A stretch of DNA of 64,000 nt, taken from Heliocidaris erythrogramma (lineage: Eukaryota; Echinodermata; Echinoidea; Camarodonta; Echinometridae). The DNA is taken from contig CM046853.1 in the NCBI GenBank assembly GCA_025617745.1, positions 51,539,021 through 51,603,020 of the forward strand, written 5' to 3'. The notes beneath the pieces were generated by a model that had not been told where the DNA came from, did not search any database, and saw nothing but the letters and a program-made list of their open reading frames with translations. Numbering within the stretch: position 1 is the first letter of the stretch; each line of letters starts with the position of its first letter. The translations under genes and the position numbers were made by a program. Of this stretch, positions 3,476 to 63,326 are shown in pieces.

Positions 3476-3626
3476 CTGGGCCTTTTTCATAAAACTTGTT
3501 ATCAATATATCAAGTTTTAATAACTAATAAAGCTACCGAAACTCTTGAATTTTATTGGCTGTGAGCAAATTTTATCATACAATTTTACACTTTTTATTCA
3601 TAGCAAGTTTATGAAACGGGGCCCTG
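3476..3626. mobile_element. Short inverted-repeat element (CATAAACTTG family)
   Basis: GGGCCTTTTTCATAAAACTT at the left is mirrored by AAGTTTATGAAACGGGGCCC at the right, giving a roughly 150-bp AT-rich foldback. Similar ends occur at 32705-32843 and, more distantly, at 51507-51673, so this is a dispersed miniature-element family. No target duplication is obvious. Confidence 0.6.
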
Positions 3627-3778
3627 GTTTGAGTCACCAATGGGTTCGAATTACACCGCTGCCACAACGTTCAGAAAGGAGAATTTAAGACATCGGCTCG
3701 GGGATAGGATAGAGGAGACTAAGGCTGAACAAAGCCGGCCAAACAAAAACATAAATGACAGTGAACACCTCACCAACG

Positions 3779-3801
3779 GGGGGGGGGGGGGGGGGGGGGG
3801 G
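3779..3801 (+). repeat. Poly-G run, 23 bp
   Basis: A pure G run. Runs of this kind, in either strand, are scattered through the whole window, often inside repeat elements. Confidence 0.95.
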
Positions 3802-4484
3802 AGCTAACTTTACAGTTGATTGAATTAAAAAGAAAACCCAGATTCATCTATGAATATTGTTGCAATTGGTACATGAAGATTTATTTTTTCAAATACATCG
3901 TAATGTTTTCTTTCAATTAACACTGTGGTCAAAACAATCTGATCACGGACAGCTGAACAGTAGCATTTTACCTCATCCATGTCAAATTTGCCTCTGCCCA
4001 AGTTTTGAATGAAATGGATGATCACCCCAAGGGTTTATTGAATGGTCGCCATTACAATTGAATGTAACCTCATGTAACGAATGTATCTCCAGACCTGATC
4101 AACATTCATCCCAAACTTGGGCAAAGGCGATTTTTGACATGCATTTTGTTTAATTGACCAGAGCTCAGTCATCCATACACAGATTTTGGTAAGAAGGAGC
4201 CTATCAAATTAAAGAAGACATTATAAATAACCAAACAAATATAAAATATTTCATTAATTTCAACTGGTTTTTAAGATACTAGGGTTTGAATATGGTTTTT
4301 TTTTAATTGACTCACACAGTATACATAACCTACATAGGCGCGGGGCGAATGGATTGACCCTCGGGCGCTCTGGTAAGTCAGCCTGGATTTCAAACTGGCC
4401 TAAATTTCAACTTCAGTAACAACGGCCATCAAATTTCTCATAATTTAACATCCTTTTACTTTCATTGGTTGTCATCCCTCTTAG
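3802..4484. other. Non-coding, probably intron or intergenic
   Basis: AT-rich sequence upstream of the first exon recognised in the plus-strand gene. A polypyrimidine-rich stretch ending in CCTCTTAG at 4484 serves as the acceptor of that exon. Nothing else is recognised. Confidence 0.4.
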
Positions 4485-13800: not shown

Positions 13801-13982
13801 TTTTTAGCATGTTATTCATGACGCCAAACATTGCCAGAAACCGTTAAAAACATGGGTGTCGATCCCGGGGGGGGGGGGGGGGGAGGGTGAGGGGTATATA
13901 TCCCCCCAAAAAAAATCTTTAAACAAATTGAGGTGGATGGGGGGGGGGGTAGCCTGTATTGAAATACCATCACATTCTTTAA

Positions 13983-14427
13983 AGACCTCAGCCTGACCCA
14001 AAACAACCATATATTGACGTAAAGCTTAGTAAACAAAGAATATAATTACGCTGGGTATTCATAAATTTTCGTCTCCGTTTATCCATAAAAAATAAAAAAG
14101 ATAATTTTTTTTGGTCCGCCCCCTCCTTATTGCGTAACAAGAGAGGAAACTGCAGGGGGTCGCTAGACGTGTGACGACATGTCATGTATACAGCTCCGAG
14201 TGCGTCTACACGATATGTCGTCATCAAATTTTCACCCCCCGCAAAGTAGCGTTCCTCAGAGACGGGGCCCTCGTCAGAAAAACCACCGGGGCTCAACATT
14301 CGGGACGCTGTTACTCATTCCACAGGAAACGGAATCTCATGAAGTTGGTTTCAATTTGTTCAGAAAATATATAGCTCCCCGTGGATGAATAAAGTGTATA
14401 TTTCAAAATTCGGTCAGGCTGAGGTCT
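13983..14427. mobile_element. TTAA-flanked miniature element, AGACCTC ends
   Basis: AGACCTCAGCCTGAC at the left end is mirrored exactly by GTCAGGCTGAGGTCT at the right end. TTAA lies immediately outside both ends (13979-13982 and 14428-14431). TTAA duplication is typical of piggyBac and Kolobok transposons. The 445-bp interior has further inverted words (ACGACATGTCATG / GATATGTCGTCATC) but no gene. Confidence 0.75.
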
Positions 14428-14431
14428 TTAA

Positions 14432-18550: not shown

Positions 18551-19573
18551 AGCTTGTCAGCTCGAACGAAGCCGCCGGGTTTGGCCCCCAGAGCGCCCCC
18601 CCCCCCCGGCCCCAAAGTCGGGTCGATTTCAACCCATCTAACATAATTATGCACCAAACTGTCAGAAGGAAGGTGTAGGACATTACCAAAACAACACTTT
18701 TGTCCGCTTAAGGCCGATTGACCAAATTTTGTCAAAAGGAAGAGGGTGTACATTACAAATATATAAAAATTTGACAAAAATTTCCATCGGGAAGAGGGTG
18801 TAATACGCCCTTGAAAAAACACCAAAGTTCCCCTAAACCAAGCTTTGCTGCCCAAAATGCCCTTGATGTAGAGAACTCCAAAGTGTGTCTTTCAGTTCAG
18901 GTAAAATTTACGTAGTACAATTTTGAGTATTGTAACAATATCATTTTGACTACTTTTGAGAAAGCAATACATTTTTCACAATTTAATAACTAATAAAACA
19001 AATAATTTATTGAATGATCATTTGACACGAAATTACACAACAAGAAAGTTACAATACTCAAGATTGAACTATCTAAATTTTACCTGAATTGAATGAAACA
19101 CTTTGGAGTTATTAAGGTTGTAATGACTAAAAATGGTTTTTCTCTACGTCCAAAGTATTTTGGGTAGCAAAGCTTAGTTTAGGGGCACTTTGGTGTTTTC
19201 TTCAGGGGCGTATTACACCTCCTTCCCGATAGAAAGTTTGTCAGTTTATATATTTTTGTAATGTACAACCATACCTCTTCCTTCTGACAAAATTTCGCCA
19301 ATGAGCCTTAAGGGAAAAAATTTGCCCAATTTTAGGGGCGGGCTGACAACCCATTCCAACAAAAAAATTCTCCAGCCCTCCAAAATTCGCTCAGTAGGGG
19401 GGGGGGGGGGGGGAGTTATGGGGGTCTAGTCTCCCTCCATAATTCTCTGACAAAAAAAAAGTGAGACCCGTATTGGGTCTCACCAGCTCTCGCAAAGTCG
19501 CTCAGTTGGGGGGGGGGGGGGGGGGGGGGGGCCTCTGGGGGCCAAAGCCGGCGGCTTCGTTGAGTTGACAAGC
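18551..19573. mobile_element. 1-kb foldback element with G/C runs in both arms
   Basis: The left arm begins GAGCTTGTCAGCTCGAACGA and continues through a C run to GTGTAATACGCCC and AATTTTACGTAG. The right arm mirrors it from about 19040 to TCGTTGAGTTGACAAGC at 19573. The arms are about 380 bp or more. The right arm is lengthened by a second G-run repeat at about 19370-19510. No coding sequence is convincing, although short frames occur. Confidence 0.65.
19370..19531. repeat. G-run repeat with CGCTCAGT words
   Basis: CTCCAAAATTCGCTCAGTAG plus a G run, then CTCCCTCCATAATTCTCTGA, then TCGCAAAGTCGCTCAGTTG plus a 24-bp G run. The same arrangement occurs in reverse orientation at about 22895-23045, identifying a dispersed family in which poly-G is an internal part. 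Confidence 0.65.
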
Positions 19574-21290: not shown

Positions 21291-21465
21291 TTAAAGGTCC
21301 CCTTTTATGGAATTACAAAGGAACTTCATTTAATAGACTTTTCTACTGTGAATCCAGATCTGTCAATCACATTACCTGAATTCCATTCATTAATCTGTAA
21401 CCTTGAAAATAAAAAAATAACTGGGAACGCCCCTAAAATTTTTGGAAAATCGGTCCAGCGATCGA

Positions 21466-21473
21466 TGACGTCA
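21466..21473. promoter_or_regulatory. CRE-like palindrome TGACGTCA, left side of element 1
   Basis: A full TGACGTCA, the consensus bound by CREB/ATF factors, lies 171 bp from the left end of element 1 and about 160 bp upstream of the ATG of its P2X7-type gene. A second half site TGACGT follows at 21476. An identical octamer occurs near the right end. Confidence 0.55.
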
Positions 21474-21626
21474 TGTGACGTTACCCACAGAACGCTCGAC
21501 TCACACAAGCTGGATCAGTATCGATGTGTGTGTGTTATGGCTATTGAGCTTCGTGTAGATCCCTTCGACTTCGTGCCATTTCAGCCCTTCATTTTAGCTT
21601 TTTAAAGACAAAATCCTACATCAACG

Positions 21627-22993
21627 ATGGCATCATCTTCTTCAGCCAGGACACTTATTCAGGATCAGATATATCTGATTTGGAGCATCAAGTCCCAGAA
21701 GAAATTGAAGAGGAATTAGGGGCCCGGCCGTATACTATGTTTGAGCCAGACATGTCGGATTCTGGGCAAGATTCTGATGATGACAGAGACGTCCCTGATT
21801 TTAATAACGGAGAGGATATCGACGGGAGACTTGGGAATAACAATTGGTAATTATTTTTTTATAATAAATTATCAATTAAAGTTTAATTCACGCATATCCA
21901 CGTATTATGAATCTTGTTTACGCTTGCAAATTGCCCGAGAGGCTGAGCTGATACTTCGCTGATCGAGGCAGTGAGCTCGATGTGCGCAGGGCCGGGGTAC
22001 ACGCCGCGCAGTTTGGTTGTTCGCCTGCTGACCCTGCCTGGGCTTGCGCTTGGGCAGTTTTACTGGTGCATGGGGTGGTAGCGTTTGATTCTAGTAAATT
22101 CTAACATTGATATCCAGAAAACTCTTAGCTCTCCTGTTATCTTGCTTGTTTTCTTTGTGCTGTAACACTAAGTAAGTGTAGGTACCGTTATAGTTGACAA
22201 TAGATATGATCTTCTTCTTCTCCACCCAGGGTTTCATCCAGTGTGTCTGCATGGAGCGGTATGTGATGAAAACTGCTTACTATTTGTATCGACAGCAGTA
22301 TGGCGGACAGGCAAGGCAGGATGCAACTGAAAATCAGTGAGTACACCATATTTTTTGTTTTAATCCTTACTGCAGTATTCCTGTATTATATAAAGCAGTT
22401 TGGATGCAAAATGCCAATTTGGCTCCTTATGAAATTAATATTACGATATTCTATAAAAGAAAATAATGTTTTAGCCTTAACGTAAATAGAGGAAGATTAT
22501 TCTATTTGCAGTGTACATGTATTTTCTTGTCCTATGTGCAGATTAACGTTTGTTTCCTCTTTCCCCATCACAACATTTTACACTGCGGTGTTGACAACTA
22601 AATTATTAGCTAATCTTCTATTGTTTATTTGTGAAGTTCAAAGTAAAAGTTACCTCACTATCACCTACATCATAGACTACACTGTGCATTGTTTTGAAGT
22701 TGTCTAATCATAGTTTCCTTTGTACTCTTAAAAAAAAAATCTTTTATAGGAAAGCCAGGCAGGGCAGGACGTGTTCCTCTCCCATCTTGTGCCGTGACAA
22801 GAATCCGTGCAGCATTTCCATCAGAACCATTGGCGGATCCAGGAGGCACAGTCGGCCCGGTCCCCCCCCCCCCCCCCCCTTTGGAAGAGAAGTATGATTT
22901 TTTTTGTGGCTTGTCAGGGAATTATGGAGGGGAAACTGGACCCCAATAACCCCTTACTGAGCGATTTTTGAAGGTTTGGCGAATTTCTTTTTT

Positions 22994-23029
<36 letters not shown>

Positions 23030-23161
23030 ACTGAGTGACTTTTCGAGAAGCTGGCAAGACCAGAAAAATATGGGTCTACCTTTTGACAAACTTTCATTTT
23101 TGTGCCCCCTCTTTTACTCAATCCTGGATCAGAACAGAACAGGGGCTTTGAAGAGGTGTAG
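21627..23161 (+). pseudogene. P2X7 ballast-domain-like gene 1, broken
   Basis: Three parts match my knowledge of a family of proteins sharing the cysteine-rich cytoplasmic 'ballast' domain of P2X7 receptors. Exon 1 (about 21627-21846) is acidic with ARPYTMFEP and ends GRLGNNNW at a GT donor. Exon 2 (22230-22336) reads YVMKTAYYLYRQQYGG, with the HPGFHPVCL motif just upstream in another frame. Exon 3 (22750-22827 and 23136-23161) reads PSCAVTRIRAAFPSE and, past an inserted element, ends GFEEV-stop. The exon with the CxC zinc ligands was not found, nor was the linker before PSC. At least one frame change lies between VCL and YVM, and another may lie after ATG-GCA-TCA. It is therefore a decayed copy. 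Confidence 0.55.
22828..23127. mobile_element. 300-bp poly-C element inserted in exon 3, 8-bp duplication
   Basis: It starts CATTGGCGGATCCAGG, a hAT-type end used repeatedly in this window. It contains two long C runs (the larger 22996-23027, 32 bp) and CTCACTGAGTGAC and TTACTGAGCGAT words. ATCAGAAC flanks it at 22820-22827 and 23128-23135. Removing the element and one copy of the duplication restores a continuous reading frame to a stop codon, which supports these limits. Confidence 0.7.
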
Positions 23162-24540
23162 ACCTACATACAATTTTGCTGTTATCTTTTCCCCCACCTT
23201 GTCAAGATCTATGTTTACAGAAAAATAAATGTTTTACTTCCACCTTATTACTGAGATTTTTATTACTGTTCTAAGATAGATTTTCAAAGATAATTTTTTT
23301 AAATTGGAAATATTCCCTGCATTTTACCTCTTTAGGGTATTTTCTTTTCAAAGTTTACTGTATGTATATATATTTTTTTAACCTTTGCAAAAAAATCAAA
23401 AGGGAGGGAAGCTCTGTGGAACTTTAATTTAAGCTATGCAACCATTATTCTCGTATTTTTTTTTACTGGGGCTTGGATATGACATGCACAAATCTCAACA
23501 TTATGCAAAGGTGATAGTAGAATTGAACATTTTAAAAATATTTATGTATCAGAACTGTTGTTCCATCAGTGTAAACATTTACACAAAGTCATCATTTGAA
23601 AGAAAAAATTATTCAGTACTAATGACTGGCAAACATCTTTTATTTACTTGGGTCATTCATGTGATCATCATTATTGTTGCTTCACATCATATTTCTTTTC
23701 AAATTGACATTTTTTCTACAGATTTTTTTCTTCTTCTTTCATTTGATTTATTGTTGTATTTATTATTATGTGCTTATATATGTTGGTCTAGTTGTTAACT
23801 TGATAACGCTTAGATAGCATATACATTTATCATGTATATAACTGTTTATAAGAAATGTTAAAAATGCTAGTACGTCATTGTTCAGTCTATCTTTTCATGA
23901 TATTTAATTCCTATACATGGATATCAGTTTCCCTGAAAGTTGGGTTTATTACATGAGGGTGTGCTACACTGTGACAATGTAAAAATTTTATTGCTGTTTT
24001 TGCTTCAAGTATCAGAAGAAAAGAGGAGTCTAGGAGGCTTATTTTGAATATTCATTTTCACTGTCAGAAATAAAATTGGAATTGGGTAACTGAGTTCACA
24101 TCTAAGTATTTGCCCAGAGCATTTTTTGTAATTGATGTTGTAAAGATGCATGTATCTCAGTCAAGAATGATAACTCTATTGTTAATGGCATATGAGGTCT
24201 GTTATTTTTTATGGCATTTGTTGTTGAATTTGTTAATGAAACACACTTTGGAAGCTAATCAGTTTTGTTTGTTTTGTTTTGTTATGTTTTTTTTTTTTGG
24301 CGGGGGATGGGCATTCTCCTATTGAATTTTTGATGTTCAATTGTAAGACAACCATTTCCTGGATACAACATCTATATCTACATTTCTCCAGAAGTAATAA
24401 TATATTTCAAATCAATTGAATATTTTTGTCATCTCTGGAAGAGCTCAAACACATTTACTATGCAAGCTTGTCGTGAATGAAACTAACAATTGAAAAGAAA
24501 GGTGTGAGTGCGTGAATGAGATCAAAACCAACAATTGGCA
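23162..24540. other. AT-rich interior of element 1, nothing recognised
   Basis: The 120-residue frame at 23436-23798 is phenylalanine/leucine-rich and lacks any motif. No transposase-like sequence was recognised on either strand. Confidence 0.45.
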
Positions 24541-24554
24541 GAATGGAAAAAGAA

Positions 24555-25025
24555 AAAAAAAAGAGAGATAAAAAGTTGAGAGGAGATGTGTGTAATTGGA
24601 GAATATTGGGCAAAAAGAAGGAGAAAGGGAGACAGAAAGCACAAGAGAAGAAATAGTGAAAAAGAGAGGGAATCACTGGGGGAAAAAGGGAGAGATAAAA
24701 AAGTTGAGGGAAGATGTGTGAAAGTGGAGAATTTTGGGCATAAAGAGGGAGAAATGGAGGGAAAGCACAAGGGAAGAAATAGAGAGAGAGAGGGGGAATC
24801 ATTGGGGGGAAAAGGGAGAGATAGAAAAGTTGAGGGAAGATGTGTGAAAGTGGAGAATTTTGGGCATAAAGAGGGAGAAATGGAGGGAAAGCACAAGGGG
24901 AGAAATAGAGAGATAAAAAGTTGAGGGAAGATGTGTGTAAGTGGAGAATTTTGGGCATAAAGAGGGAGAAAGGGAGGGAAAGCACAAGAGAAGAAATGGT
25001 GAAAGAGAGAGGGAATCATTGGAAA
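24555..25025. repeat. Purine-rich minisatellite, four units of ~110-130 bp
   Basis: GGAGAGATAAAAAAGTTGAG, GATGTGTG(A/T)AAGTGGAG, TTTTGGGCATAAAGAGGGAG and GGAAAGCACAAG(A/G)GAAG recur in the same order four times. Long open frames exist in three minus-strand frames because the strand is purine-rich and stop-poor; they are not considered genes. The array lies in the middle of element 1. Confidence 0.85.
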
Positions 25026-25124
25026 ACAGATTTTCTGTCAAATGAACTACACGTATAAGGTAGAGAAGTAGGAATCAACCTGTAACTGTGATGTATACCC
25101 CTTTTTCCTGCCGAAGGAGGGGGA

Positions 25125-25143
25125 GGGGGGGGGGGGGGGGGGG
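25125..25143 (+). repeat. Poly-G run, 19 bp
   Basis: A pure G run between the minisatellite and the small TA-flanked element that follows. Confidence 0.95.
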
Positions 25144-25215
25144 ATTGTAGGTTGAAAATTGCCCGTTATATTTTCACTACATTCAGGGTGGTAACAAAAA
25201 TCAATATTAAATATA

Positions 25216-25382
25216 CGGTGGAAACTTAGTATAACAAGGTCCTTGGGACCTGGGTAAATCCAGAATCTCGTTATATCAGTTTAAAAAAAAAGAATATAAA
25301 GAGTTGAGACCAAAATATTGCCTTGTTATATCAGGAATAGAATATTGTTGTATCAGACCTCTTTATACTGAGTTTCCACTCT
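25216..25382. mobile_element. TA-flanked miniature element, GTTATA ends (Tigger/pogo-like)
   Basis: CGGTGGAAACTTAGTATAAC at the left and TTTATACTGAGTTTCCACTC at the right are inverted. TA flanks each end. A related element with AACCTCGTTATAAC words lies at about 60130-60283. This terminal pattern and TA target fit the mariner/Tigger group. Confidence 0.55.
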
Positions 25383-25541
25383 ACCATGATAAACATTTTT
25401 ATAACACTCTTTATGGAGAAAGATCTTTTTCTTCATCAAGAACAAAAAAAAATCATTTTTAATAGTAAAGACCAATTGAGAGAGGTGCTTGTGAGGTAAA
25501 GCTCAGAGTCGCCAAATTTCATATTATTGATACATGTATGA

Positions 25542-25796
25542 TCAAACTTGTTTCAGGGACGGCCTCTTCTTGATGCCATACGCCGCATGCAGCCCCGTGC
25601 TATCGACGAAGTCCTCCGCACAAAAGTGCTCGGAGCACACAACACTGTGGTCACTCGGCCCCTTCCAATGGGCGCGAGTTAATTTTACTTTTGCGGTCCA
25701 TTTCCTTCTTATATTTGGGTCTTTAGGGAATAAATGTAGACTGACACCCTCCTTTGTGGTGTTACTGCAACCTGCAACATCGCAGCGTTGCGGCAT
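25542..25796 (-). CDS. THAP zinc-finger exon 1, intact
   Basis: The 84-residue frame opens MPQRCDVAGCSN and shows the THAP C2CH ligands: C5, C10, C54 and H57 (VVCSEHF). It also has HLFPKD at 21-26 and W33, the conserved tryptophan of the KW segment. The classic AVPTIF box is replaced by KKRPSLK. THAP domains bind DNA and occur in cellular regulators and in P-element and Kolobok transposases. The frame stops soon after the domain, so this is probably a first exon whose donor is near 25550, or a truncated protein. It starts 317 bp inside the right end of element 1 and runs leftward. No catalytic domain was found downstream. Confidence 0.75.
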   Translation of the reverse strand: MPQRCDVAGCSNTTKEGVSLHLFPKDPNIRRKWTAKVKLTRAHWKGPSDHSVVCSEHFCAEDFVDSTGLHAAYGIKKRPSLKQV

Positions 25797-25912
25797 ACTT
25801 CGCTTTAGAGGTGGTTTTCAAGGTGGTATACACAACAGCAAGTTAGTTTGCACATGTAATACATCGGCAATATTGTAAACAAGCATCGGCAATGTCGGTT
25901 TGTGACGTCACA

Positions 25913-25920
25913 CGTCAATC
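25913..25920. promoter_or_regulatory. CRE-like palindrome TGACGTCA, right side of element 1
   Basis: It lies 193 bp from the right end of element 1 and about 117 bp upstream of the THAP start codon. It is followed 41 bp later by GGGGCGGAGCTTA (25954-25966), a GC-box-like word also present at the matching place in element 2. Confidence 0.55.
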
Positions 25921-26290
25921 ATGCTCGCGGAACGAGAATTCGGGGTTTAAAAGGGGGCGGAGCTTAGCAGACTGTTTTGGACATGAATACCTGGGGGAAA
26001 TATTATTTTAAAAATATTTTGATACGTATTTATTGCAAACGGATGTCATTTTTCAATTTAGATGAGATGCATGTACAAAATACCAAGAATTATAATTCCA
26101 TAAAAGGGGACCTTTAAAGGTTGACTAAATTAGAGAGAAAATGGGTGCTCTTTCCATGCATTTTTGCCTTCTAATCACGAATCTGCCAATCGTTTGTCCA
26201 AATTATGTCTCGTTTTGACGAAAAAGGGGGAAAAGTAGAGGTTTTGGGACCGTTCCTTAAAACTCGTGAGCTGATTGGCTAACCCCCAAG

Positions 26291-26297
26291 TGACGTA
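26291..26297 (+). promoter_or_regulatory. TGACGTA site, left side of element 2
   Basis: It lies 173 bp from the left end of element 2, matching the 171-bp position of TGACGTCA in element 1. The same heptamer, inverted, occurs at the right side. Confidence 0.4.
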
Positions 26298-26942
26298 TGA
26301 AGAGTAAGGGGCACAAGATCTGCAGGCTGTAGCATATAATATTGTACACAGAATGCAGTATTTGACCCCTCTGTTCAACGGACAATTTATGAAAAAAGGA
26401 AATTAATCAATAAAATCTTAGGAATATATTTTCTACAAGATCAGAAAACGTTTTTGCCTAAATATACAGCTCTTGTTATGTTTTTTAGCTTTTCTTTTGA
26501 ACAATGTTCTCATCCATCTGAGCTTGCCGAACGAAAGTTTACGCGTGCACAGCCGTTTTATGCGTCTGTATGTATGTCCTACACATCTTTAGTATGGCAG
26601 TGACTATGTTCCCCTCGTATAGTATAGCGACTGGTACGGTGAACGCTTTTGTTTTGTTTATTTCACTTGCGGCTTTTTTTTTCCCTTCGCTTTACATAGT
26701 GCGGTAGTACTGACTTAGATTTTGGCTGAATTCGAGTAACTTATATTGAGAGAGGAAAAGTGCCCGCGATTCCGGGTTGGAGGACTTTTCTGAGCCATGC
26801 AGATACGAACTCTGATGTATCAGATGATTTATCAGATGATTTATCAGACCCCGAAGGCAAAGAAGCTCGAGTGGCAAGGGGAAATTCGACCATATTATAT
26901 GTTTGAACCCCTCGCAGAATACGGTGAAGGGCCGTGGGTGAA

Positions 26943-26978
26943 GTAACTCCAGGGAGCGTTGGAGCTCCCTGGAGTTAC
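26943..26978. mobile_element. 36-bp perfect hairpin flanked by GGGTGAAG repeats
   Basis: GTAACTCCAGGGAGC (26943-26957) and GCTCCCTGGAGTTAC (26964-26978) are perfect inverted repeats around a 6-base loop GTTGGA. GGGTGAAG occurs on both sides (26936-26943 and 26979-26986), overlapping the hairpin edge by one base. It resembles a tiny deletion product of an inverted-repeat element together with its target duplication. Confidence 0.7.
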
Positions 26979-26986
26979 GGGTGAAG

Positions 26987-27274
26987 TAGACCGAAAATTC
27001 TGTCTCTCGTTCGTTAGCTCGCCTTAGCTAACGCCCGGGGGGGGGGGGGGGGGGGTGTACTCAGATTAGGGACAACATTTTTGGGGGAAAATGGGACCCA
27101 TGTCTAAGGATTTTTTTGGGGGAAATGGGACCCATGTCTAAGGATTTTTAATGAAAAGGGGACCCATGTCTAAGGATCTTTCTTCAAAAAGTCACCCTTC
27201 CCAGCGGCACGTCCCCGTATACCCAATATACATGAGTACCCCCCCCCCCCCGGGAGCTAACGAACGAGAGTCTA
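26987..27274. mobile_element. 288-bp poly-G foldback element, 9-bp duplication
   Basis: CTCTCGTTCGTTAGCTC near the left is mirrored by GAGCTAACGAACGAGAG at the right, and both ends meet TAGA/TCTA. CGGGTGAAG flanks it at 26978-26986 and 27275-27283. The interior has a G run, three copies of GGGACCCATGTCTAAGGAT (about 27087, 27127 and 27159), and a C run near the other end. No coding sequence was found. Confidence 0.7.
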
Positions 27275-27374
27275 CGGGTGAAGCTGCTGCAGCTGCTGTC
27301 GTTGAAAAACAGATTGGAAGACTTGACTCCACGTCTGATCGTTGGAATAGGTGAACTAGCTAGCTTATCCCTTG

Positions 27375-28425
27375 TAAAAAATAACCATGATTTTACTGTC
27401 ATAACCATGGAAAACCATGGTTTTACAATGGACCAATAACCATCCATGGTTTTGCCATCAAATCCATGGTAAAACCATGGATAAACCATGGTTTTACCAT
27501 GGTTAAATAACCATGGTTAAGCCACGGTTTTACCATGGTTAAAAAACCATGGTTAAATTACCATGGATAAACCATGGTTTTACCATGGTTAAATAACCAT
27601 GGTTATAGAACCATGGTTAAGCCACTGTTTTACCATGGTTAAAAAATCGTGGTTAAATAACCATGGATAAACCATGGTTTTACCATGGTTAAATAACCAT
27701 GGTTATAGAACCATGGTTAAGCCACGGTTTTACCATGGTTAAAAAACCATGGATAAACCATGGTTTTACCATGGTTATGAGAACCATGGTTTTACCATGG
27801 TTATAGAACTAGGGTTAAACCATGGTTTCACCATGATTTTGGCTGTAAAAGCATGGTTATACCATAGTTTTGGTTGTAAATCCATTATTATACTATGGTT
27901 CTACCATGGATTGGATTGTAAAACCATAGTGATACCAGTGATTTTGATACCGTGGTTTTGAGTTTTGATTGTAAAAGCCATGGTTCTACCGTGGATTTGA
28001 TTGTAAAACCATGGTTATACAGCGGTTTTGGTTGTATAACCATGGTTATACCACGTTATTACCATGGTTAAAATAACCATCTATAAACCATGGTTAAAAG
28101 AAACCGTGGTTATAGCCGTTATAGATCATGGTTAATCCACGATTCTACCATGATTTTGGCTGTAAAAGCATGGTTATACCGTAGTTTTGGTTGTTAATCC
28201 ATTATTATACCATGGTTCTACCGTGGATTTGATTGTAAAACCGTGGTGATACCGTGGTTTTGATTGATTATGGTGATACTGTGGTTTTGATGATTGTAAA
28301 ATCCATGGTTATACCATGATTATCCCATGGTTCTACCGTTGGTTTGGCTGTAAAACCATGGTTATACAATGGGTATGGTTGTATAACCATGGTTATACCG
28401 TGGATTTGATTGTAAAACCAATAGA
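27375..28425. repeat. AACCATGGTT satellite, block 1
   Basis: About 1 kb made almost entirely of AACCATGG, TTTTACCATGGTTA and degenerate versions. Because CCATGG and AACCATGGTT are palindromes, both strands read alike. Unit length drifts between about 16 and 30 bp. Order decays to the right, where words like TGATTGTAAAACC appear. It occupies the centre of element 2 directly after the P2X7-type exon. Confidence 0.9.
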
Positions 28426-28905
28426 AACCACTTAATTTGCATATTAAATACTGGGTGCTTGTGTATTCACGTTTTCATATTATTTATTAAAATTTGCAGT
28501 ACATTTCTTCATTGTTGATGATTTAGAGTACATCAAAACGTTTATCAAATACAAAGATGGGTCAACAAACGGTTACTAGAACAATTCATTCACTGGTATC
28601 AATTACAGGTAATTAAACAGGAATTAAGGAAACACTAACCAGGAACTAAAATATGTTCATTCAATACATATATATGGACGATTCCCTCACACTTTTAAAT
28701 ATGCAAAGTCTTCAAAATTCCATTGCACTTTGGAAGTGTTGCAGACATACCAGAGTAACTTTGTTGCTATTGCCACTGGTAGTTACTAGTACAAGAGTTT
28801 CATATCTTGTAACATACCAAGGTCAAATAGTTAAACTGGTTATACTGGTTTTCACTGGTCTAAGCGATTGGACTTGTAGAAATTTCTTTCTGGTTTTACC
28901 GTCGT
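28426..28905. other. Non-satellite spacer inside element 2
   Basis: About 480 bp of AT-rich sequence between the two satellite blocks. No exon or inverted end was recognised. It could be original interior sequence of element 2. Confidence 0.4.
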
Positions 28906-28909
28906 AACG

Positions 28910-29280
28910 AAGGATAAACCATGGTTTTACAATGGACCAATAACCATATGGTTTTGCAATCAGAGCAAAAAAAGGTTCAAAAAGTTAATAAACCATGGTT
29001 ATAGAATCCACGGTTTCACCATGGTTAAAAAACCATTGTTAAACCATGGTTTTACCATGGAATTGGCTGTAAATCCATGGTTTTGATTGTTATACCGTGG
29101 TTTTGGTTGTAAAAGCCATGGTTCTACCGTGGATTTGATTGTAAAACCATGGTTATACAGCGGTTTTGGTTGTAAAACCATGGTTTTAAACCACGGTAAA
29201 ACCACGGTAAATCCATGGTATGTCCGTTCAATTTACCATGGTAAAACCACGGTAAAACCATGGTTTTACCATGGTAAATG
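28910..29280. repeat. AACCATGGTT satellite, block 2
   Basis: The same palindromic words as block 1, including TTTTACCATGG and GTAAAACCATGGTT. It ends at the 3' side of the broken THAP exon. Confidence 0.9.
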
Positions 29281-29403
29281 GGAACCATGTTTTTTTTTTA
29301 TAAGGGATCCTTTTCTTCATGCCAAATTCGGAATACAGACCAGGATCCTCAAAATCATCTTCGGCAAAGTGATCGCTGCAGATTGTACTCCACTCACTTG
29401 GCC

Positions 29404-30057
29404 GGTGTAGCGGCACATACAGTTCTCCGGCAGATACCGTATCCGCCGGCAGATATCGTTCTACCTCGGAACCATATCTGCCGGGTTTGACGTTTGCAGA
29501 TTTGGTTCCCCGGCGGATTTGGTTCCACGGCGCTGCAGATAAGGTGTATTGTATATTGGCAGATTTGTATGAGACACTCTCGTGCCTAATAGACCTGTTT
29601 ACTAAGTGATTCGAATTTATGGATGTTTCTTTCCTGGGGACCTAGTCAGTGGCGTATCCAGGGGGTGGCGCAAAAAACTAGCAAAAAAAAAAAAGTTGTT
29701 CATTAAATAGGCTTCAAAATTGGTATCCAGGATATAGGATTATTTTGCATCTCAGCCCTTCTTCAGAAGCAAAAATTTCCAAAGGGGGGAGGCCCCTCCC
29801 CTTAGGCGATGATGCCTGGCGCCCCCCCCCCCCTCTTATTGGGAAATCCTGGATACGCCCCTGCTACTAGTAACGAGGTATTCCATTAACCCGTTATTAA
29901 TGAATGAACTACAATACTTGGAATCCAGTTTGCATACATTATTTGTTGCTATGTCTAGGTACGGTATCTGCCGGGGTTGGAACATGATCCGCCGGCAGAT
30001 AGTGTTCTTGGCCGTTTTTAGAACGGTATCTGCCGATCCCCGTATCTGCCGCTACAC
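29404..30057. mobile_element. 654-bp element inserted in the THAP exon, CCGGCAGATA subterminal repeats
   Basis: GGTGTAGCGGCACATAC at the left and GTATCTGCCGCTACAC at the right are inverted. TGGCC is duplicated at 29399-29403 and 30058-30062. Within about 130 bp of each end the word CCGGCAGATA or its complement recurs several times, in the manner of transposase binding sites. No gene was recognised. A smaller hAT-like element sits inside. The superfamily is unknown. Confidence 0.75.
29647..29863. mobile_element. hAT-like miniature element nested in the 654-bp element
   Basis: CAGTGGCGTATCCAGG and CCTGGATACGCCCCTG form the ends. The 8-bp flanks GACCTAGT and CTACTAGT share CTAGT and may be a diverged 8-bp duplication. 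The interior has the C run and the CCTCCCC word typical of this family in the window. Confidence 0.65.
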
Positions 30058-30248
30058 TGGCCCTTGCCACACTGCCCGCGTGAGCTTTACCTTTGCGACC
30101 CACAATTTCCGTAGATTTTCATCTTTAGGAAAAAGATGTATAGGCTTACACCCCCTTACATCATCTTTAGGGGTCTTGCTACAGCCCACAACTATACACA
30201 TAATCGGCATAATTGATGAAACTGTGTCCTCAAATCAACGTTATTGTT

Positions 30249-30805
30249 AGCCTTTTGACAAGGCCTCGTGACTTGGCTATTTTCCTCGTCATGCTGTGCC
30301 TGAGATGAGACTAGCTGGCGACGAAAAGAATCAACACGGCCCTGGTGAACGCGCGATCGAGCAACTTTAGTCGCGAGGCCTTTTGGAACCTGGGTTTCCA
30401 TCGTCCGATATGAATTATTCACGAGTTGACATTCGTATGCTAACACGCCTACCGAGGATTATCGACCAATCACAACGGTATCTGCGGGGCTTGCTTTCCA
30501 TGATTGATGTACTAGTAGCTTGCACGGGCCGCGCTAGCTCGAGATGAAGGCGAATTTGCATACCAAAATGTATGCTGACGTCATGCGAAGATACGTTTGC
30601 TGATTGGCTCCTACCTATAAGGTAGCAGATCCTCGCTAGGAACAAAGGATAACATAAGAAATACGGGCCAGGTTCCAAAAGGCCCTCGGACTCACGTCGC
30701 TCGATCGCCCATTCATCGGGCTGGGGGGCTAGTCTTGTTATGCAGCCACTACTAGCTTACTTGCCGAGAAAAATAGCCAAGTCACGAGGGCCTTGTCAAA
30801 AGGCT
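30249..30805. mobile_element. 557-bp element with 11-bp duplication, Mutator-like
   Basis: AGCCTTTTGACAAGGCCTCG at the left is matched by the complement of GCCCTTGTCAAAAGG at the right. The inverted match extends about 38 bp (CGTGACTTGGCTATTTT) with one indel. ACGTTATTGTT flanks at 30238-30248 and 30806-30816. A further pair, AGGCCTTTTGGAACCTGG and CCAGGTTCCAAAAGGCC, is inverted inside. An 11-bp duplication fits Mutator-like elements. It lies just upstream of the broken THAP exon. Confidence 0.7.
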
Positions 30806-30972
30806 ACGTTATTGTTAGCAATTACCGGTAAACACGAAAATATGCAATGCAAATGGTCGATACGGTGAATATCATGCTCGCACTCGGCACCGTACCGGGC
30901 CGGCTGGGCCTGCCAGGCCTGCGTGCATACACGGTATACAGGTGGGTGGAATATATTTTCCTTTTCTTTTCC

Positions 30973-31024
30973 TACGTCACAGATCACGATGTCGCTTCGA
31001 TGGTTTTTTTAGGGGCGGGGCTTA
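30973..31024. promoter_or_regulatory. TACGTCA and GC box at right side of element 2
   Basis: TACGTCA at 30973-30979 (TGACGTA on the other strand) lies 191 bp from the right end. GGGGCGGGGCTTA at 31012-31024 lies 146 bp from it. In element 1 the matching words lie 193 and 147 bp from the right end. This would be the promoter region of the leftward THAP gene. Confidence 0.45.
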
Positions 31025-31175
31025 TGACTCTGTAAATCAGCAAAAATATACTTTTCAAATGATTATGTAATACGACTAAATGCATAAAAAAGTGTGTGAT
31101 AGAGATTTTTTGGCTCCTGATGACTCCTTCCTACGAAAAATGGGCAATTCATTTTTATTTTAGTAACCCTTTTAA

Positions 31176-36195: not shown

Positions 36196-39100
36196 CTAAA
36201 GAAAAAAAAAATCAAACAAATAAGAATAGAAGTACTTGAAAATAAATATATGAAGACAGGAAGAGTAACTTAAAAAAACAGTCATTTAAGTTCACCTGCT
36301 AGCTGTATCATGTACTTGGTGAAATGCAGACTAAAATAACTAAATCAATCTATGATAAATTAATCAAAGATGCCTGATAATCATTTGCACAATTATAGTT
36401 ATCTAAAATTGAATGAGTGGTAAACTTAAAGAATATTAGATTTTCCTTGGAGATACATGTAGTAGCAAAAGCAAGATAATAAGATAAGTGTCACCAATGA
36501 AGTGCAAGGGTAACAAGAAAAAAAATATCAATAGCACAAGGGGGGGGGGGGGGTGTCCTTCGTGAGAAATTCAAAATCACCATGGGGGTAAATAAAGTGA
36601 TTAATATTGCAGAAGGCCAATTAGGCCCAAATAAAAATGTACACAATGTTATCATAAGGGGCATAACCCCAAAATCTGTGGCTTCAACTTGGAGAGGGTG
36701 AATAAAACCAAAGTAAAAGTTACAAGGATGAAATATGAAAAAAAAATCATTGTCACCAGGGGAAGGCCAAAAGAGAATTAACATAAAGTATTCAGTGTGC
36801 CAAATGGGAGAGGGGATGAAAAAACAAAAGAATGTGTTTATGAGTAGAGCTCAAAATCAGGGGCGGATACAGGATTTTCAGAAAGGGGGGCGCATTTCAG
36901 AGGGGGGGGGCGCACACTGCGGAACCCTCTGTTTGACAAAGCCAAACGGCCATTTATGGGGTCCGGGGGCATACTTTGTCAGACAAAACGGGGGGGGGGG
37001 TGCACGCCCCTTGCCCCCCCCCCCCCCCCCCCCCTCTGGATCTGCACCTGAAAATGTCAAGAAAGAGATGGAAAGATTATACAAATAATTCATGTCATGG
37101 GGAGGGGTGTAGAAGGCTTATAAAGATATAGAGTGGCAAAGTGATAAAAGGGAATACTAAAAGAAATGAGGGGAAAAACCTGCATATGTGGCAGTAGATT
37201 GCATAAGCTGTCGTAATAGAAAAAAATCTAGTAATGTAGGAAGGCATTGTAAATTGTAATATTCTGTGTACCCTAGCAGTGGATAAGGCAATATTTTTGC
37301 CTAGTGGCACTGTATTTTTTAATTTCCTTGTTTTCATTTCGCTTGTTTCATTTTGAACATCGTTTTGGACATCATCTTTGATATCGCCTTGGACATCATC
37401 TTTAATATTATCTTGGACATTGTATCCAACATCGTGTTTGACAGCATCGTCAACATCAACATCAACGACTCCTGGAATTACCTTGGACTTCTTCATTTGA
37501 ATCTAAATTGATTCATTCTTCTGGATCCTTCATTCTTCATTGGAAGTTTTAAAGCCAGCAAACTTTTGGGACTTGATCTACATTTAAAGAACATTCTGGA
37601 CTCAGATTAATATTCTATAGACGTGGGTTTTCCCAGCTGAGAAATTATAAGTCTTTGCTCATTTATATATGTAATATTTGGGTCTTGAAAATGTTGGTTT
37701 TGATTTCATGTCTTACTGAGACATTTGTAAATATTAAGAATAAACTAAATATTATTTAATCAGATTTTTTTTGTTCGATTCTGATATATTTTTTATTTTG
37801 AATCCTTACAACCAAATTAAATACACTGATGTATCACAAGCTGGAAGAGCCCATATAAGACTAAAAGACGTCATCTGCAACAGTGAATTTTAGATATATA
37901 TAGCTGTAAATTCTTTCGATCCCTAATCCAACTTTCACCCTGATGATAAAAACCTTGCCGATGAACACTTTGTTTCACAAAGATGTAGATCTACTTCAAT
38001 ATCATCAGTCCTCTTTTTTTAATCATTTTAAATCCAAGTATAGAATACAAAGAATTTTAAAATATAATAAAGAGAGAAAAGCAAGCTGATGGAAAATACA
38101 AGATAAGAAATAAATAATTTGCCTGTCTGTCTGGGTCCATTTCTCTCTCAATGCAATGGTCATTGTTACATCTTGATTGGGATATTAACATGAAAAAATT
38201 ACACCTAAAACACCAACAAAAACAGATGAAAAACAGATAAAAACCATTTTACACTGATGCAATTTTGTCATACATGTAGATTTGCAGACAATGCGGTTAC
38301 ACATTACAAGTATTATGTAATGATCAATTTCTGAACTTTACTGGCCATGATAAACAAGGCACCCCCTATCAGTGGCCGATATCAAGAATTAATTATATCC
38401 CGAAGGATTAATCAATCCAGTTTATAGAATTGCACTGAACAATGCTGAGATTTACTTTTATTCGGTGTAAGCTTTTATACAGGCCAGGTGAGCTCTACAA
38501 ATCTTACTTTGCGTAGCAAATACGAATTCTGCATATTTAAAAAAAAATTGTTACTGGGTTAATCAACCTCCCTGCCCTGCGTGTCCACTAACTGATGCAT
38601 TTGCTCCTAAAATACCGGTATGGTAAAGTTTCTAGCTTTCAACAACACGAGTCGTTACGTAATCAGAAACCATAAAACCTAATGTACAATAAATTGCAAG
38701 ACCAATTATAATGTCACTTACATGTAGCACTACAAACCTTCTATAATCATACAAATTCATTGCACAATCTTTAATTAGGGATACGGAATTCAAACAATGT
38801 TCTTGATATAACACAAAAATGAAGGTGATGTGTGTTCCTTGACATTAAAGGAGAATTAACCCCTGAGTACAAATTTACTTATATTGGAAGGTGTAATATA
38901 TTCCTACTTATTGGCCTAAATTATTTTCTAATAAGATATCAGAAAAGGGTATAAATAAAGATATTCCAACACCCGGCATCGTCTCCTACTCATTTACATG
39001 GAGGCTGCCATTTTCTTGCTGATTTGGAGTTGTACATGAACCATTGAGAAATGTTCCAGTCAGGAAGATATTTTGAATCCAAGACCTAAATTGATTTTCT

Positions 39101-42100
39101 TCATTACCTAAAATCCCATATGTGACGAAAAATATAAAGTGGGTGTTTACATATATTATACAAATTAAATCTTTATAATGATACTTTTAAATTGTCTGGT
39201 TTTGCTTAACAAAAATCTATTTTCTTGGGTTTGCCAAACAGAGCGGAACATAATATATACAGCATGCATTCTGACTTTTCAAGTCCATTATCCGAAAGCA
39301 GGCGAATGCATAGTTTGCCGCTATAGATGCTCAGGGAAGAAGCATCCATAAAATTTGAATTAATTTGCTCCGTCCCATACGTCCAGTATCGAGAAAATAG
39401 ATTTCTATTAAGCGAATATCGATTTTCAACAGAAATATATTTCAACAGAAGCCATATAGTCTAACAAGTCGGAATAAATAACACCTTTGAACACTATCGT
39501 CTTTATTGTTTGAGGTTAATTCTCCTTTAATACTTCAGTCACATGACAAACTTAGTTTACAAACTAGCAAAATTGATCTCAGCATCTACATGTAGAATAC
39601 GCTGCTTATATTTGTGTTTATTGAAGAATGACAAATTCTAGACTCCCAAGAAAACGATTATTACACAAGTTTACATGTAAGAGTTTTCTGACTCTCAACT
39701 TTGCTGATACTAGCCAGAAGAAATACCAATTCTTGTCCCCTCTGGATTTTGCACCTTTTCACAAAAGTGGTCCTTGCTCACTCGAGCGTAAAATATCACC
39801 AAAACTTTAGGTGTCATCCACAGGTATGAAATTTTGCTTCAAATATTTCGAAATATTTATTTGGGGAGACTTTTTCTGACTGTTATTTTTTTCTAGGACA
39901 CACTGTATAGCATCATGCTGTCATCTTCTTTTATAAAAGGGACATTAGTGGGAAGATTTATAGATGGAGAGTGAGATTTGGATAGAAATAATATATTGCT
40001 TTATTGTTACAGTCTAATTCCTCTTCATAAAGATAAAAACTGAGTTCAGGTCATGTGATTTCACTGCGAAAGACACCGTCTGGAAGCAAATTGGGAAAGT
40101 TTGGTTATGTAGTACATAGGAACTGATGTACACTGCGAGGTTTTTGACTCATCAAAATGATAAGAAATAGACTCAGTCTTGCTGAAGTCACATGCACTGC
40201 ACACAAAAATGTGTATATGGGACTACTCACACACACACACAAGCGCGCACACACACGCACACACACATGTGGAATGAAAGTTTGGTTGGTCCAAACTTTC
40301 AGCTATTTCTTGTCATTTTTTTTAAAATGACGGCATCTGAAGAGCAATCCTTTTTTCTGGGACATTTCTTCTATTAAAAGATGATATTCTTCCACACTGA
40401 TACAAAAAGAATGAAAAAGCTCCCAAATTATTTGTCACCTTCACGGCAACCCAACCTTCTCTTTAACATTACACACTAAATTGCATTGCCTGCTCTCATT
40501 TTCCTACCTCATATTCATAACACATACATGTAGCCCAAAAAATTGCAAAGCACCCAGAATGAATGAAAAGAATAAGGGTAGTTAAAAGCTAAAGCACATG
40601 TTGAGCAGTATCAATCCATACATCTACAATTTGGGTTCTTTTCAGTATATGTATATTCTGCTCAGTGAGAGCCAGAGAGATGTTAACTCTCATGTGCAAC
40701 AAAGTTAGTCAATGCCCTTTTAGCTTTCAGCAGAGAGTATTGTGTAATTTAGTAGATTTCCCAGCATGGCTTCATGATTTTTTTTAATGTATATCATAAA
40801 ATAACTTGACCATTTTTTTCCAGACCCTTAATATATGTAGCTGAAAACAAACAAAAAAAGCTCTAGGAGTACTTGCATTAACTAATAAAAGTGATACTCC
40901 ATACATGTTGCCCCAGGCAAGTTACATTTACTCACACAAATAGCATAAAGAGGATATTTTGCAGTCCTCTTCGCGGGGGTTTAACCTTCCTGATTCGTTT
41001 AGCCGAAGACATCGATTGGATTTCACCAATTCATCACATTTTTGGAGAAATGCACACAAAAAAGACAGAGAGCAGCAGAGACATGCATGAAGCACGTTTT
41101 AGTCTCTTTTATTCTTGTGTTATTTTCCATTGAACTGTACTCCTTTAATTACTTACTATCACATCATCAGAAAACCTAAGCCAAATGTTTCTCATTTCCT
41201 CTCATTTCCTAATTGACTGTACTTTAATCCAAAAATCAAAAGCAAATCCATATCATGGAAAAATTGCAATTAAGTTGTCCTTTCTCTCCATCAACACATT
41301 TCAAAAAATAATGATGTAATGAACAAATAAAGAAAATCCCAGTAAAAGAGATGACTGTAAAAAATACTGTATCCCTAGGCCATGATATGAACGTGCCTAC
41401 TCACCTCTGTCGGATTAAGCCACGAAGCGACACTCTCCTCATCTTCATGTCCTTCCAATGACATCAGCCCACACACCAGCGTTCTAGCAATGGCTTCATC
41501 TACCCGACTTACATGGTCACTTTCCTGCAAAGGATTAGAGCATGATTAAAGCACGATAAACTTTCGCTGTCTGCAATTTAGTTTCCTCTTCAATGTCATA
41601 ACATTTCATGGTCTCATTTTTTGGTTCGCTCATAAAAACACTGGAAAGTTGATATTTGGACAAAAGGTGTCCCCCTCGGCAACGGACTGCAGCCTCCCCC
41701 CCCCCCCCCCCACCCCCGAGGATTTTCAAAGTACTGATAATCGGGCAACCACCATTTCATATCTGGGCCGCGAGATTCCTAGATAATTATGTAATTCTAT
41801 ATGTAACTTCTGTACATTTTCACTATGAAAAGTAAAAAAAAAAAAATTGACAAGTTGATATTTGGGCAAAAGTCGTCAGCTCGCCCCCCCCCCCCCCTTG
41901 CGAAAATTAAAAATAATTATGATCAAGATCTCTACAGCTGTGATTTTCTTTTTGATTATTATTTGTGGGGGGAGAGATTAGGGTGCAGCATTTTTGTAGG
42001 CAAATTTGGGTGTCACACCCCCCCCCCCCAATTCAAAATGTTCTAGCGACGCCCCTTTAATGATCAAAGCCATTTATCTAGCTTAAAAATGCTTGTAATA

Positions 42101-45100
42101 CCATTAGTAAATACTTTCAAATGTATATACCAGTGCAAAGCTCTTTAGCATGTATGTGGCCTGCTTCAAATTGGTGATATATAATCATATAATAATCAAA
42201 GCTGTTTATCTAGCTTTAAAACCTCTTGGAGTAAGGTACCGGTAGTAAATACTTCAAATGTATATATCGGTGCGAAGCTCTTTAGCATGCATGTGGCATG
42301 TTTCAAATTGGTGATATATATATATATGTGACCAGGCACCACAAAACCCCCAAAAAAGTCGCCAGATATAATTTTTCAGGTAAGGTCTGATTCTGAAAGA
42401 ATATTGTTGATGGTGGGGGGGGGGGGGGGGGGTAGAGAAAAGGCACATTTTGTATGGAAATGTCATCAAAAGAATGGTATAAAGGGCACGTAAGGATGAA
42501 ATATATCAGATTATGACAACTTTCCACCTGCAGAATGGGCACCTTTTCCATCACAAGAGGGATATTTAAAGTGATTAGGTAACTTTGTGGAGGATTGATA
42601 AAATCTGAGCTGTCTGGCCTTACATGTTATCAGTGCATGTAATATGGTGTAAAAATGAAGCCCATGTGGAAAAAAGCACTTCAAAATCATCATGTGCTTC
42701 ACAAAAGTAAACATATGCAAGTGACCGGAAATGCCAGACTCATTTTCCCCCATAGACTCAGTGTTAGACTAAAGCGTATGGCCATAAGCTTTCGTAAATG
42801 GTAGTATTCAGTCGCAGAAAGCTTAATAATAGCATTATACACTAAAGGAAAAAAGAAACTTATAAAAGTTCAAGAGATCACCAAATTAAATTCTCTGCAT
42901 GGAAATGTACCAAATTTGGATATAATGTTGATTCAATGCATGGCTTTAAATGACAGTCAATAACAAAAAGTTTTCTTCAATGCCACAAAAGAAATGTGCA
43001 CTGAAGCAAAGGACTCTCTAATCCCCAAGTCACAAAGACAAACTGCAGCCTTGTACACCATATGCATGTCAATGAATGAAACAAAAGAATTTCAAAAGGG
43101 ATTTGCACCCTCGAGCAAGAGGATATTGATGTTCTGCCATGGTGCGCCCGTTCACCAGACCTTTCCCCAATTGAACATCTCTGGGAAGAGCTTGGTCGAC
43201 GTGTGTCAAGGCGTGACAATCAGCCCATCAATAGGGAGATGCTCATTGCAGCACTGCAAGAGGAATGGAACAATGTTCCCCAGGCTACCATCGCGAATCT
43301 GATCGGAAGCATGCGAAGACGGTGTACAGCTTGCCAGCAAGCTAGAGGTGGACATACTGGCTATTAATCTGTTTGGATATGAACTTGCAAATCCCTTTTG
43401 AAATTCTTTTGTTTCATTCATTGACATGCATATGGTGTACAAGGCTGCAGTTTGTCTTTGTGACTTGGGGATTAGAGAGTCCTTTGCTTCAGTGCACATT
43501 TCTTTTGTGGCATTGAAGAAAACTTTTTGTTATTGACTGTCATTTAAAGCCATGTATTGAATCAACATTATATCCAAATTTGGTACATTTCCATGCAGAG
43601 AATTTAATTTGGTGATCTCTTGAACTTTTATAAGTTTCTTTTTTCCTTTAGTGTATATTTGAAAACCTTTCTATGCCTGGCTATTTATTTATCCTTCTGA
43701 ACATCATTATACAAGACAGATATCAAAATTCAACAATTTATTAAATCAAGCCTCCACAATTGGCGTTGGCTCATGTTTCATGAAAATTCAGATTGAATGC
43801 ATTTCATCACACAATGTGTATCCCATTTTTGTAGCGTACATTTCCCTTACGTCATGTTCGCTTATGACACTAATGTTATCACAGACTTTTGATTTACCAA
43901 AATCTGGCACAATTGAATTTTTATATGCCATTTTGAAAACAACATTGCTCTGTGATGCTTGCATGATTTATGCCATCAGTATATCATTTTAAAGCATATT
44001 AATTCTACTTGATGAAAAACAAAGAGTTATATCCGTAATGCTCATAGTTTATTCACAATAAGCCTTTGTTTCGGGGTTTTGTTTTTTCTGGGATGCACCA
44101 TATATAACCATATAATTATCAAAGCTGTTTATTAGCTTTAAAATCTATCAATTTGTCCTCATAATGGATTCCCTTTTTCTCATTATGCATTGCAGTCTTA
44201 CAAGTTAAACACTTCACCTTTCGGCCGATATGAAATCAATGTGACATACATGTATCCAAGAGTTAAAACCATCAGAAGCCAACAATCAACAATGTGTGGT
44301 CATAAGTTTTTAAATTTAGGGGTTTCAGTTACTGTTTCAGTGTCATCTTAGGGCAAAAACATTACTATTCTATTATATTCTATTGTGAATACTGAAATAA
44401 TAAGCCTTAAAGCCCACCACACACTATACAATCAGTCTATGATCCGATTTTGCAAGAAAATGTTACAGCATTAGATATAAACAGTTAAACACAGGCCCGT
44501 ATTCTGAACTCCGGTTTAGCTTAAACCATGGTCTAAATGTGTGGTTTAACTATGGGCAGCCAAATGTGACACAAATATCTAACAGTAGATATTCAATTAA
44601 TCAGCATTTTTGGTACTCAAACTTTTAAAAACTGTCTGGGAATGATAAGTAAAATAGTTTTCTTGACCATTAAAGCACGAGACCAGAATCCAGTAAACAT
44701 AAGGAACATGCAATATAAACAAAGTTTTGACATTTTTGGCTACCCATAGTTAAACCACGGATTTAAACCATGGTGTAAGTTAAACCGGAGTTCAGAATAC
44801 GGGCCATAGAATATGTTTTATTGCAGTTCTTGAATAGTTACACAGATTGTAATACTGCCTTAAAAAAAAAACGCTAGTGTTTTTTTTTAATAGCGTACAG
44901 CGCTTCACATTTCTGTATCTAATAACACATAGGTAAGTGAGTTCACATAGGACTTGTGTTGCGTCATGCATCCCTACTTGCCATTCATTTAGTACACAAA
45001 ATACCCACAGTGTTTTTCTTATGTGGGTTTTACAGTGGCATGTATAACGTGCCTTCAAAGTAGGAGCAATGGGCTAAATACTATACAAATGATGCATGAG

Positions 45101-62641: not shown

Positions 62642-63000
62642 TTAAGGTTTCATAACTAAATAATTCTACACAGTACAAAAATGAAATGAAAAATTGATGA
62701 ATTAAACATTAACGATGAAAAGAATAATCAATTATTAGACAATACTAAAGGTATTATTCAACACTCAATTGAGGATGCAAGAGGTTTTACAAAATATACA
62801 ACAAAATAAACACATTCAGAAGTTTCAACCCAAACAATTATCCTTATTGTATTTTAGGAGGAATCTTGTTTGCTTTCTATATTGAAATTTATGTAGACAA
62901 AAAATCTGGTTTTATGAGAAACTTTCATTTTTATCACTTTTTGTAAAATTGCAAATTAATTGCATTTCATAGCCTCAAAAATGTCCAACAATACCTTTAA

Positions 63001-63322: not shown

Positions 63323-63326
63323 TTAA

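Follow-up and report, generated by a model that had tools for sequence, protein, structure and literature searches.

The window analysed here is a stretch of 64,000 nucleotides of the Heliocidaris erythrogramma genome (assembly GCA_025617745.1, contig CM046853.1, positions 51,539,021–51,603,020), and it contains two adjoining TTAA-flanked elements, hereafter E1 (21295–26113) and E2 (26118–31171). E1 carries, on its plus strand, exon pieces of a P2X7-ballast-type gene, KolX, which is known as the second (accessory) protein of the Kol0 group of Kolobok transposons (Kojima & Bao 2022, PMC9587614), and a convergent THAP exon on its minus strand. E2 carries a THAP exon in two pieces and a weak KolX-like motif. 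Our results suggest that E1 and E2 are very probably non-autonomous, internally deleted derivatives of two different Kol0-type Kolobok families, in which the starts of two inward-facing genes have been kept.

E1 is bounded by perfect 21-bp inverted ends (TTAA-AGGTCCCCTTTTATGGAATTA, at 21291–21315 and 26093–26117). The 25-mer made of TTAA and this repeat occurs at 753 sites (383 + 370) of the 1.06-Gb genome with up to two mismatches, and at none when reversed as a control. The THAP exon of E1 scores far above the Pfam cut-off (51 bits versus 23.9), KolX exon 3 remains below that of P2RX7_C (13.4 bits versus 23.5) and KolX exon 1 has no Pfam match at E ≤ 1. In exon 1, the ATG at 21627–21629 is out of frame with the remainder, and the sister copy L040 differs. 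Compared to L040, the window E1 lacks 600 bp (L040 869–1468) and with them most of the cysteine core (L040 1339–1468); in exon 3, L040 2002–2044 also has no counterpart. Given these deletions and the frameshift, the idea that the window holds an intact P2X7-type gene was rejected.

The left TTAA of E2 is the right TTAA of E1. The E2 left 22-mer (26114–26135) has 1,564 genome matches with up to two mismatches (control 6), and the right 22-mer (31154–31175) has 1,347 with up to three (control 115). The inverted ends and TTAA flanks that the preliminary description proposed for both elements are confirmed. Pairing exact left ends (52) with listed right ends (27) on contig C1 gives 18 inverted pairs shorter than 10 kb, two of which use one common right end; 15 of the 18 pairs span 1,654–1,710 bp, and the others 5,062 bp (the window copy), 3,202 bp and 5,934 bp. 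Sister copies of E2 measure 1.63–1.71 kb, and the window copy has been enlarged to 5 kb by four inserts, which we defined by comparison with three sisters (L032, L033 and L035). The E2 middle (27371–29306) in the window copy is a tandem array of self-complementary CCATGG-centred units. The THAP exon of E2 is present near the right end and leftward, as described earlier, but split by an insert: its first piece (24.8 bits) passes the cut-off of 23.9, and the second (14 bits, at about 29312–29401) does not. No cysteine exon was recognised in the window E2. Thus, of the P2X7-type gene proposed for each element, KolX pieces are confirmed in E1, but neither copy is intact. The two elements had also been taken for twins. 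That they are twins of one element is ruled out, as their ends differ and the window has a single occurrence of the E2 left end; the differing ends, the one common TTAA and the swelling of E2 by four inserts speak against an origin in one event, and E2 belongs to another family than E1.

Table 1. Positions of E1 and E2 features in the window
Feature	Position	Strand	Score
TTAA target-site copy left of E1	21291..21294	none	
E1 left terminal inverted repeat, AGGTCCCCTTTTATGGAATTA	21295..21315	+	
E1 KolX exon 1 remnant, acidic, ..ARPYTMFEP..GRLGNNNW	21626..21847	+	
E1 KolX exon 2 remnant, ..CVCMERYVMKTAYYLYRQQYG..	22230..22337	+	
E1 KolX exon 3 remnant, ..VPLPSCAVTRIRAAFPSEP	22752..22829	+	P2RX7_C 13.4 bits, below cut-off
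E1 THAP exon	25545..25817	-	Pfam THAP 51 bits
E1 right terminal inverted repeat	26093..26113	-	
TTAA common to E1 right end and E2 left end	26114..26117	none	
E2 left end, AGGTTGACTAAATTAGAG	26118..26135	+	
E2 KolX-like exon 1 motif RPYYMFEP, weak	26887..26910	+	tblastn E 0.026
E2 insert 1, absent from L032, L033 and L035	27034..27269	none	
E2 insert 2, CCATGG-rich palindromic tandem array	27371..29306	none	
E2 THAP exon, second half	29312..29401	-	14 bits, below cut-off
E2 insert 3, splits THAP exon	29406..30058	none	
E2 THAP exon, first half; limits of the open frame, with the match itself at 30055–30210	30055..30234	-	24.8 bits
E2 insert 4, inverted ends TAGCCTTTTGACAAGG read from sequence	30251..30831	none	
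E2 right end, AAGGGTTACTAAAATAAA on minus strand	31154..31171	-	
TTAA right of E2	31172..31175	none	

Gene content was compared among copies of E1 in 20 regions, which were taken by their ends alone. The ends listed number 100 (of 753), and these regions account for the first 24, minus the two window ends. Both ends lie within the fetched stretch for 15 of the 20 regions, giving 16 copies with the window; the 15 fetched copies are flanked by TTAA, which was part of the search pattern. KolX pieces are present in all 16 copies and THAP in 15. The only copy without THAP (L030) has 8-bp flanks on both sides identical to those of the THAP-bearing L029, which suggests that a single insertion was duplicated and rearranged to give both. 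Copies lacking either gene, which the preliminary description had named as evidence against its gene pair, are thus nearly absent among those with both E1 ends. The five regions without both ends contain KolX and THAP (L012 and L018), a KolX piece (L011) or neither (L022 and L028). In the right flanks of L021 and L017, an outer TTAA is followed by AGG, like the joint of E1 and E2 in the window, which might reflect insertion beside another such element.

Some E1-type copies are more complete than that in the window. L040, with both E1 ends, contains THAP and three KolX exons, including the cysteine core, although exon 2 has one frameshift. L061 and L062, each with one E1 end (four mismatches), have retained THAP as well as the KolX core and exon 3. 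In L060 (C16:16818900–16825900), the cysteine core and exon 3 are still open reading frames, a right E1 end (four mismatches) lies ∼0.4 kb downstream, and the left end falls outside the fetched stretch. L060 gave no clear THAP and no clear transposase match, and transposase queries reached E 0.26 or worse at best in L040, L060, L061 and L062. The transposase exons of a larger relative (L031, see below) matched none of the 16 E1 copies with both ends by tblastn at E ≤ 0.01. For E2, seven copies including the window were inspected, of which L032 and L033 were chosen for a THAP match beside an end, and L035, L063, L064 and L065 independently of E2 gene content; all seven contain THAP.

Both genes occur together with a transposase in a relative of 11,097 bp including both TTAA (L036 + L031, C1:72133817–72144913) with the ends AGGAACTACAG. 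These ends recur in another copy, on C12, which has different flanks and is 96.6% identical over the left 1.5 kb and 97.6% over the right 0.7 kb. The plus strand of this 11.1-kb unit contains KolX exon 1 (in L036), the cysteine core in exon 2, and an exon 3 with a P2RX7_C match of 32.8 bits (cut-off 23.5). Its minus strand contains a THAP exon (61.9 bits) upstream of transposase exons on the same strand: one matches PF20700 ‘Mutator’ (32.6 bits versus a cut-off of 26.5), another has a weak MULE match (19.8 bits, below cut-off), and there are further open frames. The KolX core of the relative is 100% identical at five loci and the transposase core 99–100% identical at seven (query included). 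Such near-identity at several loci points to recent movement, and suggests from the exon sequences that these elements were recently active.

Because THAP and the transposase exons follow each other on the same strand, the THAP unit, previously described as a separate gene, is most likely where the transposase gene begins, as its exon 1, and not a second accessory gene. Alternatively, THAP (e.g. as a regulator) and KolX could both be separate accessory genes, with the transposase located elsewhere. The THAP exon does lack recognisable catalytic exons in the E1 copies and in the window E2, but the order seen within one TTAA unit in L031 and the usual possession of DDE, THAP and H2CH motifs by Kolobok transposases, as stated in PMC6004289, make this alternative highly unlikely.

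The class placement follows from several features. E1 and E2 are flanked by TTAA, the Kolobok target site, and have 5′-RR...YY-3′ termini (E1 AGG..CCT; E2 AGG..CTT), as does the L031 family (AGG..CCT). The ends and the exon similarity together suggest that E1 and E2 belong to Kolobok. KolX with ballast cysteines, as in Kol0, is preserved to different degrees: L040, L061 and L062 have the core, and most of it is missing in the window E1. No match to a Kolobok-type DDE transposase was found in the window copies of E1 and E2 or in the 15 fetched sisters of E1, which marks the elements as non-autonomous. The Kolobok assignment in the preliminary description, drawn from TTAA and THAP, therefore gains support from the ends and from a relative with a PF20700 transposase; of the DDE-bearing copies that it proposed to look for, none with E1 or E2 ends was found among the copies inspected, and transposase exons were found in the 11.1-kb relative. 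We consider it extremely improbable that the elements belong instead to piggyBac, which also targets TTAA and a few families of which carry a KolX-like C-terminal part (PMC9587614). The ends begin with AG and so with 5′-RR, a stated distinction from piggyBac (PMC9587614), THAP is present, and the transposase exon of the relative matches PF20700, with no piggyBac model among its matches at E ≤ 1.

We also analysed the pairing of KolX and transposase across the genome. The 69 transposase matches were grouped into 58 loci, neighbours were counted within 20 kb, and the lists hold 150 of 463 P2RX7_C candidates and 150 of 3,966 THAP candidates. At least 22 of the 58 transposase loci have a listed P2RX7_C match as a neighbour (random mean 0.41, maximum 5 in 1,000 draws), and all 22 pairs are convergent. 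At least 18 of the 150 listed P2RX7_C matches are near a listed THAP match (random mean 1.09, maximum 6 in 500 draws), again convergent in 18 of 18. Among the best 46 KolX core matches (of 150 listed), 16 have a transposase neighbour, 15 of them in convergent orientation. A higher co-occurrence of 28 of 58 was set aside because it pooled the 150 family matches with the top 46 of 150 core matches and eight hand-picked weaker rows; the clean count of 22 comes from the family matches only. These results bear out the earlier proposal that a P2X7-type gene is a standing partner of such transposons and show co-occurrence far beyond chance, and the pair is not confined to one locus.

A simple mechanism could explain the layout of E1 and E2. 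In larger relatives, KolX would run from the left end and the THAP–DDE transposase from the right end, toward each other. Internal deletions would then take out the middle but spare the ends and the first exons of both genes. The part lost would comprise the catalytic exons in both elements, together with most of the KolX cysteine core in E1. Inward-facing gene starts and a deleted middle would alone account for the ‘paired gene’ picture in two families. The E1 and E2 copies may have been moved in trans by the transposase, whose THAP domain would recognise the ends, with cutting at TTAA. KolX would assist the transposition complex, most likely as a protein- or DNA-binding zinc module for assembly or regulation.

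Several observations weigh against this derivation from Kol0 families. First, no transposase-bearing copy with the ends of E1 or E2 themselves was found; the source families are therefore presumed from KolX and THAP similarity, and the Kol0 assignment is likewise provisional. Second, the sole trace of KolX in the window E2 is the eight-residue match (tblastn E 0.026), the KolX motif scan was positive in five of the seven E2 copies (missing in L033 and L035), the cysteine exon (exon 2) of L031, taken by itself, matches no Pfam family at E ≤ 1, and the 79-residue L031 core by itself matches no solved structure. Third, the splice that would join THAP to the transposase exons is predicted from their strand and order and from the domain composition given in the literature. 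Finally, a family with several copies contributes more than once to the 22 paired loci, 36 of the 58 transposase loci have no P2RX7_C match within 20 kb among those listed, and one of the 16 neighbour pairs of KolX core and transposase is divergent. Incomplete match lists, decay or other Kolobok lineages could each explain the 36 unpaired loci.

Whether the short copies are under selection was assessed within E1-group copies by counting distinct nonsynonymous (N) and synonymous (S) variants against the column consensus, with one-sided P values. No sign of selection was seen in the KolX core (N 26, S 12, omega 0.75, P 0.25; 12 sequences), KolX exon 1 (N 34, S 11, omega 0.81, P 0.32; 18 sequences) or the THAP exon (N 26, S 6, omega 1.49, P 0.86; 18 sequences) of this group, the test being confined to E1-type copies, and the substitution pattern is that of neutral decay. 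Pairwise dN/dS of KolX cores was below 1 in all 28 usable pairs (of 190; median 0.41); this used only pairs with dS of 0.05–1.5, and the test on the 12 E1-group cores, which is not significant, is fairer. Truncated repressor proteins are known from the KP derivative of the P element. The short E1 and E2 copies might similarly have been selected for truncated THAP (or KolX) repressors, given that the DNA-binding THAP exon is kept in both families and that the ends occur at hundreds of sites. We regard this as very improbable in view of the omega values for THAP and KolX exon 1, and the layout alone would retain the gene starts with no selection required. It also appears unlikely that KolX is an active mobility factor, that copies of the L060, L061 and L062 type form a functional non-autonomous class supplying or benefiting from KolX, and that the ‘ancestral synteny’ reported for animal ballast genes is a Kolobok unit.

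The joined KolX exons of the 11.1-kb relative match solved P2X7 chains (E 8.6e-4) from the first cysteines through the last residues. L035 contains an intronless ballast-type open reading frame of 228 codons (3242–3928, minus strand) that matches solved P2X7 structures at E 1.7e-13; it lies 8.4 kb from a convergent transposase match with an E2 copy in between, and the two may lie in one TTAA unit. The cysteines are mostly conserved among 20 aligned KolX cores, except that L041 lacks the first part, and L059 and L053 have Y and S, respectively, at one early cysteine. The 21 P2X-receptor exon matches are all on one contig, and none has any of the 150 listed KolX matches closer than 100 kb; among these matches, no P2X channel joined to ballast was found.

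The window also contains other TTAA-flanked units of 330–686 bp that resemble miniature inverted-repeat transposable elements, at 13979–14431, 18708–19311, 38845–39530 and 62997–63326, with inverted-end matches of 17, 14, 15 and 15 of 18 bases, respectively. Ten block-shuffled controls reached up to 14, so the unit at 18708–19311 is no better than chance. Two further stretches (42886–43607 and 47438–48185) have nested 18/18 inverted matches and two TTAA positions each, which suggests that they are long inverted repeats.

Three published systems are closest to these elements. Xenopus Kolobok and its domesticated transposases share the transposase with THAP, DDE and H2CH motifs (PMC6004289), and ‘KolX’ occurs 0 times in the main text of that paper. 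The ZCD/NANOR-like proteins are likewise stand-alone proteins with ballast or zinc-coordinating cysteines (Rump et al. 2020, PMC7016195). According to that study, stand-alone ballast proteins are found in many animals, including sea urchin and acorn worm, ballast genes are linked with two neighbour genes across animals in what was read as ancestral synteny, and one Ixodes open reading frame joins a ‘TAHP’ domain to ballast; ‘transpos’ occurs 0 times in its main text. These linked neighbours and the Ixodes fusion may be Kolobok.

The third system, Kol0 Kolobok (PMC9587614), shares the TTAA duplication, the 5′-RR ends and a DDE transposase accompanied by KolX with P2X7-ballast similarity. KolX was reported there to resemble residues 476–595 of human P2X7, and P2X7 was argued to have originated by fusion with KolX. 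The partnership of KolX with Kolobok is therefore not new but was published in 2022, contrary to the preliminary description, which held the partner gene to be undescribed; besides that paper, no article on KolX, P2X7–Kolobok or THAP pairing was found by title or abstract start. The main text contains ‘thap’ 0 times, and no discussion of the convergent layout or of KolX-keeping copies without transposase was found in the parts consulted. In contrast to the published Kol0 elements, those in the window are deleted derivatives lacking a transposase, and their ends and families are this genome's own. What is new here is (i) more families, (ii) the convergent layout and (iii) copies that keep KolX without a transposase, and the elements that seem recently active could serve to test KolX function. 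This gives genome-scale support, from a genome with no P2X exon match near any listed ballast match, to the published view that the P2X7 ballast travels as a transposase partner and gave P2X7 its tail.

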